64,000 nucleotides of DNA, taken from assembly GCA_026418615.1 (NCBI GenBank), contig JAOAAY010000008.1, forward strand, positions 1 to 64,000, read 5' to 3'. The stretch's first letter is position 1. Each line of letters opens with the position of its first letter. Source of the DNA: Candidatus Sumerlaeaceae bacterium (GTDB lineage Bacteria; Sumerlaeota; Sumerlaeia; Sumerlaeales; Sumerlaeaceae). The notes under the pieces are model-generated. The model had not been told where the DNA came from and made no database searches. It saw nothing but the letters and a program-made list of their open reading frames with translations. The translations under genes were made by a program, and so were the position numbers. Below, in pieces: positions 56,025 through 60,916 of this stretch.

Positions 56025-58433
56025 ATGATTCGAGCAACATGGACGGCGCTTCTGCTAACAGCAGCAGCGCTATCGGCGGGGAAACCCATCAACCTCGAAG
56101 GGCGCGATGTCGCCTTGGTCGTCAGGGAAGACGGCGCCGTATCGGCCAGCGGAGTCATTCGTCGGCAGGCGGCCGCCTCACGCGTCTTCACCGCGGAATT
56201 TGACCGAACGCAGCGCCAACTCGGCGCTGTCCATGGCCTGCTGGTGGCCGGCTCGAAGCACCCTGAGGTTTACATCAACGGCCTGCGGGTCGAATCTGCG
56301 CCGCTGCCCCGACCCGAAGGCTGCATCGTGCGCATTCTGGAAACTTATTTCCTGCCCGGCAAAAACGAGATCGAGATCCGGCGCGCGGACGATGAACCCG
56401 CCGCCCCGTGGGACGGCACGGCGCTCTTCGCGCTGGATGGCACTTCCGAGGAGGTTCATTTCGGCCGCGCTTTCACCGTGGAACCGATGGCCCAGCCGCC
56501 AGCCCATCCAACGCAAGCCAAATTCGATGTTCTCTGGTACGACTGCACCTGGCAACCCAACTTAGCCCTGCCATCGTCGTCGGGCGTCGGCGCATCGCTC
56601 ACATCGGCCACGGTGATGATCGGCATGAGAAGCCTCGACTCGACGCTCAACCAGTGCGTGCTCGATTATGATCCGAACGGCTCATCGTCGCCCACGCTGC
56701 CCGTCTCGCGCGTGGATTCGGGCCCCGGCACCCCCACGCTGCCGTATACCTTGGACAACACCAACGACCGGATCACTATCACGCTGCCGGCTCCGGTGCC
56801 GGCCGGGGAGGAATTCCGCGTGCGTATTGCCTATTCGGGCACGCCATCCACCGCCGGAACCTTCGGTCCGCCCTTCGCCCGCGCTCGCCACGGCTCGCCG
56901 GCCACTACGGTGCTCTACACTTTCAGCGAGCCCTATGGCGCGCGCAAGTGGTGGCCGTGTAAGGACCTGCCTGACGACAAGGCCACTACCACGATTCAGC
57001 GGATCATCGTCCCGTCCGGGGCGGGATGGCAGGTGGTCAGCAACGGCAAACTGCAGGGCATCACCAACAACGGCAACGGCACCGAGACCTGGACATGGGT
57101 CAACAGTTTTCCTATCACCACTTATCTCGTTTCCATGTGCATTTCCAATTACATTTATGTCAGCGCGGTGTACACCAGCCGCGACGGCTTGACGACCATG
57201 CCCATCAGCCATGCCATTTATCCGGAGAACATCGGGCTGGAGGGCAGCGGCGCAGTGGGTACGCTGGAGGTCATGAATTTCTTTGCCGATACTTTCGGAG
57301 AGTACCCGTTCCTGCCCGAGAAATATTTCACAGCCTCTCACTACAGCGGCTCCGGCATGGAGCATCAGACCTGCACCAGTATGCCCGGCGGTGATGTTCA
57401 GGACGGGCGACAGCGGCGCAATGTCCATGAACTCGCCCACATGTGGTTCGGCGACAAAGTCACCTGTCGCACTTTCGATCACCTGTGGCTCAATGAGGGC
57501 TTCGCCACTTACGCCGAGGCGCTCTGGGTGGAGCATTCTCAGGGCAAAGCGGCGTTTCATTCGTATGTGAACGCGTGGTCCGTGACCACGACCGTCCCCG
57601 TGATCGGCCCCAATTCCGATTCGTTCTCCGGCAGCGTGGTGTACCGCAAGGGAGCGTGGGTCCTGCACATGCTGCGCCGGGTGGTCGGCGACCCGGCCTT
57701 TTTCCAGATTCTGCGCGACTACACGGAGGTGCCCTCGATCAAATACGGCACCGCGCTGACGCCCGACTTCAAGGCCGTGGCCGAGAGCGTGTCGGGGAAA
57801 AACCTGACATCGTTCTTCAACCAATGGCTTTACCGCCCCGGGAGCGAGGCTCCCGGCACCGGCGGAGTGTATGAACCCTCCGCACAGCCCACCTACTGGT
57901 ACTGCGGCAGCGCCCAAAAGTCGGGTGCGGACTGGGTTACCTCGCTGACGATCACCCAAACACAGGCCGGCACGCCGTTTGTCATGCCCATTGACATTGA
58001 TTTCATTGACGCGACCAGCGCCCGCCAGCGCCGCGTGGTGGACAACGCCAGCGCCACCCAGGATTTCTCCGTCAACACAGGCTCTTTCGTCCCTGTCGAA
58101 ATCGAGTTCGACCCTGATAATTGGCTGCTCGAATCGCGTTCGCTGAGCATCAACACCGTGGGCCTGCCCGCCGGGCAGCGGGGAACGGCCTACTCGCGGT
58201 CCCTGCGCGCGAGTCACGGTACCACACCGTATACTTGGACAGCCGGAGCAGGCCTGCCGCCGGGCATCACCCTCTCGTCGGGCGGCGTGCTCTCGGGCAC
58301 GCCCACAGCCGCCGGCACCTACACCTTCCCCGTCACCGTGCGCGACAATGCCAATGTGTCGCGCACCACGACGCTACGACTCGAGATCCAGCCGCCGTCG
58401 GGCGTGGACGACTGGCCGCTGCAGACGCGCTGA
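56025..58433 (+). CDS. Secreted M1-family metallopeptidase with C-terminal Ig-like domain
   Basis: The 802-residue protein has a signal peptide (residues 1-19), an unrecognised N-terminal domain, an M1-like N-domain (about 160-380) and the catalytic domain. The zinc motif is H468-E-L-A-H472 in NVHELAHMWFGD, and the third ligand is Glu491 in LWLNEGFATYAEAL. The exopeptidase motif of the family (usually GAMEN) reads G-S-G-M-E-H-Q-T at 442-449, so Asn is His. The usual helical ERAP1-type C-terminal domain is missing; instead, a putative Ig-like He_PIG domain (about 705-790) ends the protein. It probably hydrolyses peptides outside the cytoplasm. It follows the KAS II gene by 43 bases on the same strand. 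Confidence 0.92.
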   Translation: MIRATWTALLLTAAALSAGKPINLEGRDVALVVREDGAVSASGVIRRQAAASRVFTAEFDRTQRQLGAVHGLLVAGSKHPEVYINGLRVESAPLPRPEGCIVRILETYFLPGKNEIEIRRADDEPAAPWDGTALFALDGTSEEVHFGRAFTVEPMAQPPAHPTQAKFDVLWYDCTWQPNLALPSSSGVGASLTSATVMIGMRSLDSTLNQCVLDYDPNGSSSPTLPVSRVDSGPGTPTLPYTLDNTNDRITITLPAPVPAGEEFRVRIAYSGTPSTAGTFGPPFARARHGSPATTVLYTFSEPYGARKWWPCKDLPDDKATTTIQRIIVPSGAGWQVVSNGKLQGITNNGNGTETWTWVNSFPITTYLVSMCISNYIYVSAVYTSRDGLTTMPISHAIYPENIGLEGSGAVGTLEVMNFFADTFGEYPFLPEKYFTASHYSGSGMEHQTCTSMPGGDVQDGRQRRNVHELAHMWFGDKVTCRTFDHLWLNEGFATYAEALWVEHSQGKAAFHSYVNAWSVTTTVPVIGPNSDSFSGSVVYRKGAWVLHMLRRVVGDPAFFQILRDYTEVPSIKYGTALTPDFKAVAESVSGKNLTSFFNQWLYRPGSEAPGTGGVYEPSAQPTYWYCGSAQKSGADWVTSLTITQTQAGTPFVMPIDIDFIDATSARQRRVVDNASATQDFSVNTGSFVPVEIEFDPDNWLLESRSLSINTVGLPAGQRGTAYSRSLRASHGTTPYTWTAGAGLPPGITLSSGGVLSGTPTAAGTYTFPVTVRDNANVSRTTTLRLEIQPPSGVDDWPLQTR

Positions 58434-58475: not shown

Positions 58476-59936
58476 ATGGTCACATGCGAGGAGCGCAGCC
58501 GCGTGGACGACATTCAAATTGTTGAGTGCCTTGAGGCCATCCGCAATTACCTGCTGGCCGAAGACCCAAAGATTGGCGAGACGCTGCGCGACACCCAGAC
58601 CAACGGGCTCCTACGGCACCCCGGGCAGATGAAGCAACGCTTGATTGCGGTTGTCCTCGGTCTGGACGACACGCTGCCCGCGGCGCGACGCAAACTGCGG
58701 CGCTTTGCCGCCATGCACCCGACCCTCGCTGATCATCTCTCCCCTGTTGATTTCGTGGCCGAGGAGTCCGGTTCGAATGATGGTTTGTGTCTGCCCCGGC
58801 GACGGCAGGAATTACTCGAGAAAAGTCTCGCGGCCTTCGACGGGTTCGATCAGGAACTGGCGGCCTGCACCACACCCAGTCAGGCGGCTGCGCTGACCAG
58901 ACAGCGCCTGCCCATCCTGCGCGGGCGCCGCGTGCAGGAGTATCTGGCCGCCGTCGGATTTCCTGTGTTGCCGCGCAGCACCGGCATCGAGCGGGTCATG
59001 GTCCGGTTGGGGCTGGTGACCGGCCGCAGCGCCGCGGAGTTCGAGTCGGCCGCCGAGCGTGCTTGCCGTGCCGCGGTCATCACCCATGCGGAACTGGCCC
59101 TGCTGCTGGGGCTTTTTTCCGGAGCCCGTCGCCACGCCCGCCATGAGCCAATCTGCACCCTGCGACCGCGCTGCCATGCCTGCCCCTTAACAGCGCACTG
59201 CCTCTATTGGCGGGTCCATGGCGCGCCCAGTCCCGCACCGGTTCGGAATTACACGCCCATCCGCGATTGGACCGAGGACGCCCGCCCGCGCGAGCGCTTG
59301 CTCAACGGGCACCATCTTCCTGATGCCGAGTTGCTGGCCATTGTGCTGGGAACCGGCACCGGCAGCACCTCCGCCGTGGACCTTGCGCGGGTCCTGCTCG
59401 GCCGCTTCCAAACCCTCCACCGGCTCAGCAAGGCGACGCCCGGCGAGTTGAAATCCATCAAAGGAATTGGCGCGGCCAAGGCAGCCCACATCCTCGCAGC
59501 CCTCGAACTCGGCAAACGCGCTGCCGCACGGGAGGCCGACATCCGCGTAGCCCAAGAGGCGCCTTTCACCGACAGCGCCGGCGTCTTCGAGCGCTACCGG
59601 GCGCGCTTCATGGGTGAGACGCAGGAGCGGTTTCTCGCGCTGCTGCTCAACACGCGCAATCGTCTCATCCGCGAGGTCGAGGTCTCGGTCGGCACGCTCA
59701 ACGCCAGCATCGTCCACCCCCGGGAGGCTTTTCGCCACGCCATCACCGAGACCGCTGCAGCCGTCATCTTCCTCCACAACCATCCGAGCGGCGATCCTTC
59801 GCCCAGTGCAGCCGACCGCGAAATGACCCGCCGGCTGGTGGAAACCGGCCAGATCGTGGGAATCCGCGTGCTTGACCATGTCATTATCGGAGCGCACAGC
59901 CACTACAGTTTCGCCGATAACGGAGAGATCTCTTGA
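58476..59936 (+). CDS. Fusion: N-terminal FeS/HhH-GPD-like domain plus RadC (UPF0758)
   Basis: The 486-residue protein has two parts. Residues about 265-486 are a complete RadC: RPRERLLNGHHLPDAELLAIVL, the HhH motif SIKGIGAAKAAHILAALELGKR (327-348), and the JAB metal motif HNHPSGDPSPSAAD (H434, H436, D447). Residues about 15-250 resemble DNA glycosylases of the endonuclease III/MutY group: GFPVLPRSTGIERVMVRLGL (161-180), then C227-x5-C233-x2-C236-x5-C242, a near copy of their 4Fe-4S motif (normally C-x6-C-x2-C-x5-C). The catalytic Asp position is occupied by Ser168 and the catalytic Lys motif is not visible, so it is probably a DNA-binding, non-catalytic module. I do not know of a described example. 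The stop overlaps the ABC ATPase start. Confidence 0.85.
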   Translation: MVTCEERSRVDDIQIVECLEAIRNYLLAEDPKIGETLRDTQTNGLLRHPGQMKQRLIAVVLGLDDTLPAARRKLRRFAAMHPTLADHLSPVDFVAEESGSNDGLCLPRRRQELLEKSLAAFDGFDQELAACTTPSQAAALTRQRLPILRGRRVQEYLAAVGFPVLPRSTGIERVMVRLGLVTGRSAAEFESAAERACRAAVITHAELALLLGLFSGARRHARHEPICTLRPRCHACPLTAHCLYWRVHGAPSPAPVRNYTPIRDWTEDARPRERLLNGHHLPDAELLAIVLGTGTGSTSAVDLARVLLGRFQTLHRLSKATPGELKSIKGIGAAKAAHILAALELGKRAAAREADIRVAQEAPFTDSAGVFERYRARFMGETQERFLALLLNTRNRLIREVEVSVGTLNASIVHPREAFRHAITETAAAVIFLHNHPSGDPSPSAADREMTRRLVETGQIVGIRVLDHVIIGAHSHYSFADNGEIS

Positions 59937-60916
59937 CGCCCGCCAGCCCGCAACCCGTCCCCGTGTTGCGCCTTGAACACCTGACCAAGCGGTTCGGGCA
60001 CATCACGGCCGTGGATGATGTGTCGTTTGAGGTCTTCGAGGGCGACATCTTCGGCTTCCTCGGCCCCAACGGCGCAGGGAAATCCACGACGCTGTACATG
60101 ATCGCCGGACTCGTGTGGCCGACAGCCGGGCGCATCGAAATCTTTGGCCGTCCTCACACGGATTTTCTGGCTGTGCGTTCGCGCGTCGGTGCCCTGCTGG
60201 AAACGCCGGCTTTTTACGAGTATTTGTCCGGCCGCAAAAACCTGGAATTGCTGGCCCGCTTGCAGCCGGGCATTTCACCCCGCCGGGTGGACGAGGTGCT
60301 GGAACTGGTCGGCCTCTCCGCCCGAGGGCGCGACCGCGTGGGAGACTATTCGCACGGGATGAAGCAGCGCCTCGGCATTGCCCAGACGCTGCTGAACCGC
60401 CCCCGCTTGCTGCTGTTGGACGAACCCACCAGCGGCCTCGATCCCGAAGGCAGCGCGCAGGTGTGGGCGCTGCTGCGCCGGCTCGTAGCCGAGGAGACCA
60501 TCACCGTCGTCATCTCCAGCCACCTGCTCCACGAGGTGGAGGAAGGCTGCAATCGCATCGCGGTCATCAACGAGGGGATGATTGTCGCCTGTGATGAGGT
60601 GCGCAACCTGCTGTTTTTCTCCAAGGATGACTACCTCATCGTGTTTGACACCCCGGATGCGTGCCGGGCGGCCGAGGCGTGTTTGCGCACGCTCGACGGC
60701 GTCGAAGTATTGGCCACCGGCGATGACGCCGGCGAGATTCTCGCCCGCGTGGTGGAAGGCCATCTTGTCTGGGTGCGCTTGCAGGAGGGTGTGGCACCTG
60801 CGGTCCTGACGCGTCTGGTCGAGGCCGGACTTGCTCCGCGCGAGTTCGTTCGCCAGCGCAAGACTCTAAAGCAGTTCTTTTTCGATCTCACTCGCCGCCA
60901 GCCTACCCGGATCTGA
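59933..60916 (+). CDS. ABC transporter ATP-binding protein
   Basis: The 327-residue ATPase has Walker A GPNGAGKSTTLYMI, the Q-loop region GALLETPAFYEYLSG, the signature YSHGMKQRLGIAQ, Walker B LLLLDEPTSGLDPEG and the switch histidine in VVISSHLLHEVEEG. A C-terminal extension of about 100 residues resembles the CcmA/NatA-type export group. It would energise an ABC-2 exporter. No permease is adjacent; the double permease at 41966-43702 is a candidate. Translation starts at TTG 59933, which overlaps the RadC-fusion stop (TTGA), with GGAGAG six bases before. This coupling to RadC is unusual. Confidence 0.92.
   Translation: MTPASPQPVPVLRLEHLTKRFGHITAVDDVSFEVFEGDIFGFLGPNGAGKSTTLYMIAGLVWPTAGRIEIFGRPHTDFLAVRSRVGALLETPAFYEYLSGRKNLELLARLQPGISPRRVDEVLELVGLSARGRDRVGDYSHGMKQRLGIAQTLLNRPRLLLLDEPTSGLDPEGSAQVWALLRRLVAEETITVVISSHLLHEVEEGCNRIAVINEGMIVACDEVRNLLFFSKDDYLIVFDTPDACRAAEACLRTLDGVEVLATGDDAGEILARVVEGHLVWVRLQEGVAPAVLTRLVEAGLAPREFVRQRKTLKQFFFDLTRRQPTRI

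Follow-up and report, generated by a model that had tools for sequence, protein, structure and literature searches.

Throughout the bacterial class Sumerlaeia, RadC carries an additional N-terminal domain (NTD) that has the predicted fold of the HhH-GPD DNA glycosylases and a conserved four-cysteine loop, fused in one reading frame to a complete RadC. On balance, we favor a reading in which the NTD is an Fe-S DNA-binding module that arose from a glycosylase and guides the JAMM domain of RadC to DNA, giving a lineage-defining form of RadC. An earlier sequence-only reading had proposed a structural or sensing Fe-S module joined to RadC; the fold prediction, the cysteine conservation, and the recurrence of the fusion all support this view.

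The window, the whole stretch of Sumerlaeota DNA that we analyzed (64,000 nt), contains an intact 486-aa open reading frame without internal stops at 58476-59936 (+). The ATG at 58476, taken previously as the start, probably precedes the true initiation codon, as the aligned homologues begin at the position of a GTG at 58503, where the profile match from the same genome also begins. The gene is laid out as follows.

58503-59936, + strand: radC-fusion gene, from GTG (probable true start) to stop, based on the open reading frame and homologue alignment
58503-59225, + strand: NTD, an Fe-S-type domain of predicted HhH-GPD fold, residues ~10-250, based on AF2, Foldseek, hhalign, and an OGG2 profile match
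58875-59012, + strand: degenerate helix-hairpin-helix/GPD segment, residues 134-179, based on alignments and profile search
58977-58979, + strand: codon of Ser168, in the column of EndoIII Asp138, based on the alignment of 30 homologues
59154-59201, + strand: Fe-S-type loop C227-X5-C233-X2-C236-X5-C242, based on sequence and a weak Pfam EndIII_4Fe-2S match (E 0.043)
59259-59486, + strand: RadC N-terminal HhH module UPF0758_N, residues 262-337 (Pfam PF20582, E 7e-23)
59568-59924, + strand: RadC JAB domain, residues 365-483 (Pfam PF04002, E 3.8e-42; Foldseek match to RadC 2qlc)
59775-59816, + strand: JAMM metal-site segment H434-N-H436-PSGDPSPSAA-D447, based on conserved positions, with Glu384 upstream at 59625-59627

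A complete RadC (UPF0758_N plus JAB) occupies residues 262-483, and both Pfam matches lie far above cut-off. The protein likewise exceeds the curated cut-offs of the NCBIfam RadC models TIGR00608 (201.8 bits against 133.85) and NF000642 (229.6 bits against 180), and Foldseek matches its C-terminal part to RadC 2qlc with a TM-score of 0.9 on the target. The JAMM residues E384, H434, H436, and D447 are all present, and these four positions are conserved in homologues wherever the sequence is complete, except for one His to Gln change. Given where Pfam places the two RadC parts, approximately 250 N-terminal residues are extra, which bears out what had been proposed from the letters alone.

Structure prediction assigned these N-terminal residues to the HhH-GPD fold. 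The AF2 model of the NTD has a pLDDT of 87.6 and a pTM of 0.83 (mean pLDDT across models 87-88), and its first 17 Foldseek matches in the PDB are all EndoIII, OGG2, MutY, or MUTYH. The top match is EndoIII (1orn), with a best E-value of 6.4e-3 at probability 1.00; the best TM-scores, 0.53/0.64, are with TmOgg (3n0u). These E-values are modest and the TM-scores on the query span 0.36-0.53, so that the HhH-GPD fold is a prediction on which all leading matches agree. Comparison with an EndoIII/MpgII-like set by hhalign gave 96.9%. The HhH-GPD Pfam model PF00730 did not match the window protein or any member of the NTD profile A1 at E 0.1, and none of the Pfam or NCBIfam models reaches its cut-off over the NTD; the best NCBIfam match, MonDNAglycDR2438 (E 0.01), falls far below its family cut-off. 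In profile searches, the Sumerlaeia NTD matches OGG2 enzymes over the core (E 3.4e-5, OGG2 profile positions 88-208), while its EndoIII/MutY matches fall mainly on the Fe-S loop, indicating an OGG2-like core with an EndoIII-like cysteine loop. This refines the resemblance to EndoIII and MutY first noticed in this protein: by profile search it falls mainly on the loop, and the core is closest to OGG2.

Cysteines 227, 233, 236, and 242 of the window protein form the pattern CX5CX2CX5C. EndoIII has the spacing C-X6-C-X2-C-X5-C, also seen in MutY, so the spacing noted earlier as almost that of endonuclease III is correct in its positions and one residue short. The pattern CX5-6CX2CX5C arose in none of 20,000 shuffles of the window protein. 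Among 45 outside RadC frames, CX5CX2CX5C occurs only in a gene from genome G086 (the same gene is present twice in the set). The cysteines are conserved in homologues, with the exact motif in 29 of 30 Sumerlaeia proteins and in all 29 distinct long proteins of a second phylum. Cys227, Cys236, and Cys242 are invariant in the 30 Sumerlaeia sequences, and Cys233 is present in 29. The loop is most probably the site of a putative [4Fe-4S] cluster.

The fusion is a property of the class. Searching with the window NTD sequence found the domain in 34 of 61 genomes; profile A1 detected it in 37 of 39 Sumerlaeia genomes and in all 20 with at least 90% completeness, the 37 including a few contig-end fragments or split frames (G008, G018, G028) and one weak match (G009). 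All matches in a scan of named contigs with related NTDs of the class were in Candidatus Sumerlaeota/Sumerlaeia MAGs. Almost every full RadC match in the A1-positive genomes lies in a frame of ~490-600 aa, and the same domain order is thus found in one frame in almost every Sumerlaeia genome. In G028 (C304, 2779-3539), the fused gene is in two frames, broken between NTD positions 129 and 130, probably by a frameshift. Short RadCs are the exceptions, in genomes G013, G002, and G017. On the tree, the short JAB-only RadCs of three Sumerlaeia genomes (L081, L082, L083) nest within the fused RadCs; L082 adjoins a conjugation-type ATPase gene, which suggests capture by a mobile element. The NTD is under purifying selection: of six usable pairs, five gave a dN/dS of ~0.16-0.25, and the sixth, whose members are very close, gave 0.41. 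The corresponding values for the RadC part are 0.05-0.15, and the NTD evolves ~2-5 times faster.

Comparison of Sumerlaeia neighborhoods revealed no conserved repair-gene neighborhood around the fused radC, and gene order is conserved only within the window's own family. There, radC is followed by an ABC-transporter ATPase gene in 7 of 7 examined members, an order not shared by the rest of the class; in the window this gene (59933-60916, +) begins with a TTG, giving a four-base overlap with the radC stop. The gene directly upstream (56025-58433, +) resembles an M1-type aminopeptidase (HELAHMW...LNEGFA), carries a putative Ig-like domain at its C-terminus, and is absent from other Sumerlaeia radC neighborhoods. 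A mobile-element origin of the fusion was rejected, as tblastn gave no match in 72,556 plasmid and 50,697 phage records and none in viral contigs. A defense system was also rejected, PADLOC having returned just weak generic JAB matches.

With A1 and the combined profile A6, a search of 386 genomes from across the domain matched, outside Sumerlaeia, G086 and G118/G259. In the second phylum, that of G259, a diverged NTD is present in 40 of 52 genomes, including 15 of 15 good ones, and most RadC matches lie in 459-550-aa frames. A second-phylum profile built without Sumerlaeota recovered nothing from the 386 genomes, at E<=1e-5, beyond 12 Sumerlaeia fusions and the two members of its own phylum, and hhalign of the two NTDs gave a probability of 97.8%. 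The hhalign match of the second-phylum NTD to EndoIII is confined to the Fe-S loop, and no GPD core is recognizable. Pfam did not detect UPF0758_N in any of five second-phylum proteins tested; here the NTD appears to replace RadC's own HhH module. In G259 itself, the Fe-S RadC (L088, 1372-2811, -) is interrupted by an in-frame TAA in the region expected for UPF0758_N; the Fe-S part forms a frame of 292 aa and the JAB part one of 187 aa, reflecting either decay or two separate proteins. G086, the sole genome examined of a third phylum, encodes a RadC (L080) that retains UPF0758_N but has lost the glycosylase core; its fused part consists of just the final core helix with the Fe-S loop and follows a low-complexity Pro/Ala-rich stretch.

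The Fe-S-type loop and the JAMM domain are common to all three phyla. In a JAB-only tree, a branch supported at 94/98 separates 44 Fe-S RadCs from 37 ordinary ones; the support is 98/98 with the three short Sumerlaeia RadCs included, which nest in the Sumerlaeia group. The tree was built from 128 columns, and this branch lies slightly below the strictest (starred) support threshold. The pattern is consistent with a single origin of the Fe-S RadCs, followed by either vertical descent or transfer between phyla. A 454-aa RadC from another phylum (G260, L089, 1477-2838, +) carries an unrelated ~235-aa N-terminal extension.

We then consider the residues on which base excision depends. The catalytic-Asp column of the 30 Sumerlaeia homologues contains Asp in 19, Glu in five, Ser in four, and Arg and His in one each; the window protein has Ser168, and five aligned members of its family have Ser, Glu, Arg, Ser, and His. 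The Asp to Ser replacement reported previously is therefore real in the window protein but is not a trait of the homologues at large, given the 19 with Asp and five with Glu, and the retained Asp rules out that the family as a whole simply lost catalysis. Asp loss in the NTD is lineage-specific. In the column of the catalytic Lys of the HhH, the window protein has Arg151; Lys is found in one of the 30 homologues (lost in 29), and 14 have Leu. Arg177 is invariant (30/30), as are other NTD core positions, and Arg173 is present in 21; the window protein keeps both arginines. Overall, the Fe-S-type motif and the JAMM metal site are retained throughout, whereas the glycosylase catalytic residues are not.

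A precedent cautions against equating loss of the Asp with inactivity. Sis-HhH-GPD has Ser where the Asp would be and is nevertheless active as an alkyl-base glycosylase; this Ser is non-essential and a Glu performs the chemistry, while R157 and R161 are near DNA and matter for activity (PMC11754123). Arg173 and Arg177 of the window protein lie at the corresponding offsets. Because a Glu does the work in Sis-HhH-GPD, Ser at this position would not by itself prove inactivity, and since the column is acidic in 24 of 30 homologues, some fused members may still be catalytic. The NTD could then be a working glycosylase, possibly non-canonical like Sis-HhH-GPD, with RadC processing the abasic site in a one-protein excision module. 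This explanation also draws on the core, nearest by profile to OGG2, an 8-oxoG glycosylase/AP lyase, but we judge it unlikely. The Lys column is mostly Leu, the window's own family is variable at the Asp column, and the second phylum and G086 keep the Fe-S loop and RadC while the former lacks a recognizable GPD core and the latter most core helices. Moreover, every Sumerlaeia genome also carries separate HhH-GPD genes, so that glycosylase activity of the NTD could be redundant.

We attach a low probability to a second alternative, in which the loop senses redox state or iron and thereby switches RadC on and off, with little DNA-targeting role. The cysteines are more constant than any DNA-contact or catalytic residue of the NTD and persist in G086 without the glycosylase core, as such a switch might predict; however, Arg177 and other core positions are likewise invariant in Sumerlaeia, no redox gene recurs among the neighbors, and the cluster in EndoIII-type proteins is usually structural or DNA-binding. 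Zinc binding, which would make the NTD a structural HhH-GPD-like DNA-binding appendage, also seems improbable to us: four cysteines by themselves do not separate zinc from Fe-S, and one Sumerlaeia member (L023) has just three of the four, but the spacing and the following sequence match EndoIII/MutY Fe-S loops, and 9 of 22 members match Pfam EndIII_4Fe-2S, the strongest of them at E 9.5e-4. Finally, although the genomes are mostly many-contig drafts, nothing specific points to an assembly or sequencing artifact joining two genes, and we dismiss it because the fusion is conserved class-wide in one frame, recurs in dozens of independent assemblies, the single-contig genome G004 among them, and has halves that evolve together (r 0.80, Mantel p 1e-4).

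In the favored reading, the HhH-GPD domain fused in front of a complete RadC, with its four-cysteine loop, derives from a DNA glycosylase and would have ceased base excision. The Fe-S loop and the arginines of the GPD helix would now serve to bind DNA, perhaps where it is damaged or abasic, and the domain would bring the JAMM metal center to the bound site, where the substrate may be nucleic acid or a protein on DNA. More tentatively, and with somewhat less than even confidence, we suggest that the three phyla share an ancient RadC clade in which the former glycosylase is an Fe-S damage- or structure-sensing clamp controlling the JAMM enzyme; if so, RadC acts on DNA or DNA-attached protein.

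RadC is widespread in bacteria but poorly understood, and its name is disputed. A fusion kept across whole phyla despite decayed glycosylase catalysis physically ties RadC to DNA recognition and provides a concrete, purifiable protein with which to ask what RadC does. The same family offers an HhH-GPD glycosylase apparently converted into a binding module and a possible case of RadC swapping its DNA-binding module for a different one.

A literature search found no paper on a RadC-EndoIII fusion, on a glycosylase-like Fe-S domain fused to RadC, or on RadC in Sumerlaeota. The suggestion of an undescribed DNA-repair architecture thus stands for the architecture, whereas "repair" is uncertain because RadC's own repair role is disputed (PMC5512222, PMC11981726); mutating radC in E. 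coli leaves DNA-damage sensitivity normal (PMC11981726). On present evidence, we regard the protein as a new phylum-wide form of RadC and not as a new kind of enzyme.

Compared with RadC as defined by UPF0758 plus JAB (TIGR00608/NF000642), the window protein has the same C-terminal ~220 residues, with the HhH and all JAMM residues. The ordinary RadCs listed outside the three phyla have ~190-340 residues, with G260 as the exception, whereas the window protein adds an Fe-S-type domain of ~250 residues. The NTD shares the HhH-helix-GPD arrangement of the OGG2 8-oxoguanine DNA glycosylase/AP lyases up to one residue. To our knowledge, OGG2 has no Fe-S cluster; in contrast, the Sumerlaeia NTD carries, outside the stretch that matches OGG2, a cysteine loop like that of EndoIII and has lost the Lys in 29 and the Asp in 11 of 30 members. 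With EndoIII and MutY, the window protein shares the four-cysteine loop, but it lacks the LPGVG hairpin, has Arg for Lys and Ser for Asp, and is fused to RadC. Among MagIII/MpgII-like monofunctional glycosylases, at least one such-looking HhH-GPD protein (L085) has the CX5CX2CX5C loop, but these enzymes are encoded by separate, unfused genes. Related fusions join the RadC JAB domain, as here, to a DNA-handling part: RadC has been found fused to HhH, ArdC-N, and DinG-type helicases (PMC5512222), and in RadC-like DinG proteins RadC is N-terminal to the helicase (PMC11981726), DinG being an Fe-S helicase family. Comparative work has argued from the HhH and DinG-type helicase fusions that RadC is a nucleic-acid-processing domain (PMC5512222), and these fusions support RadC acting on nucleic acid. 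The window protein reverses the DinG order, with a glycosylase-fold domain N-terminal to RadC in place of a helicase C-terminal to it.
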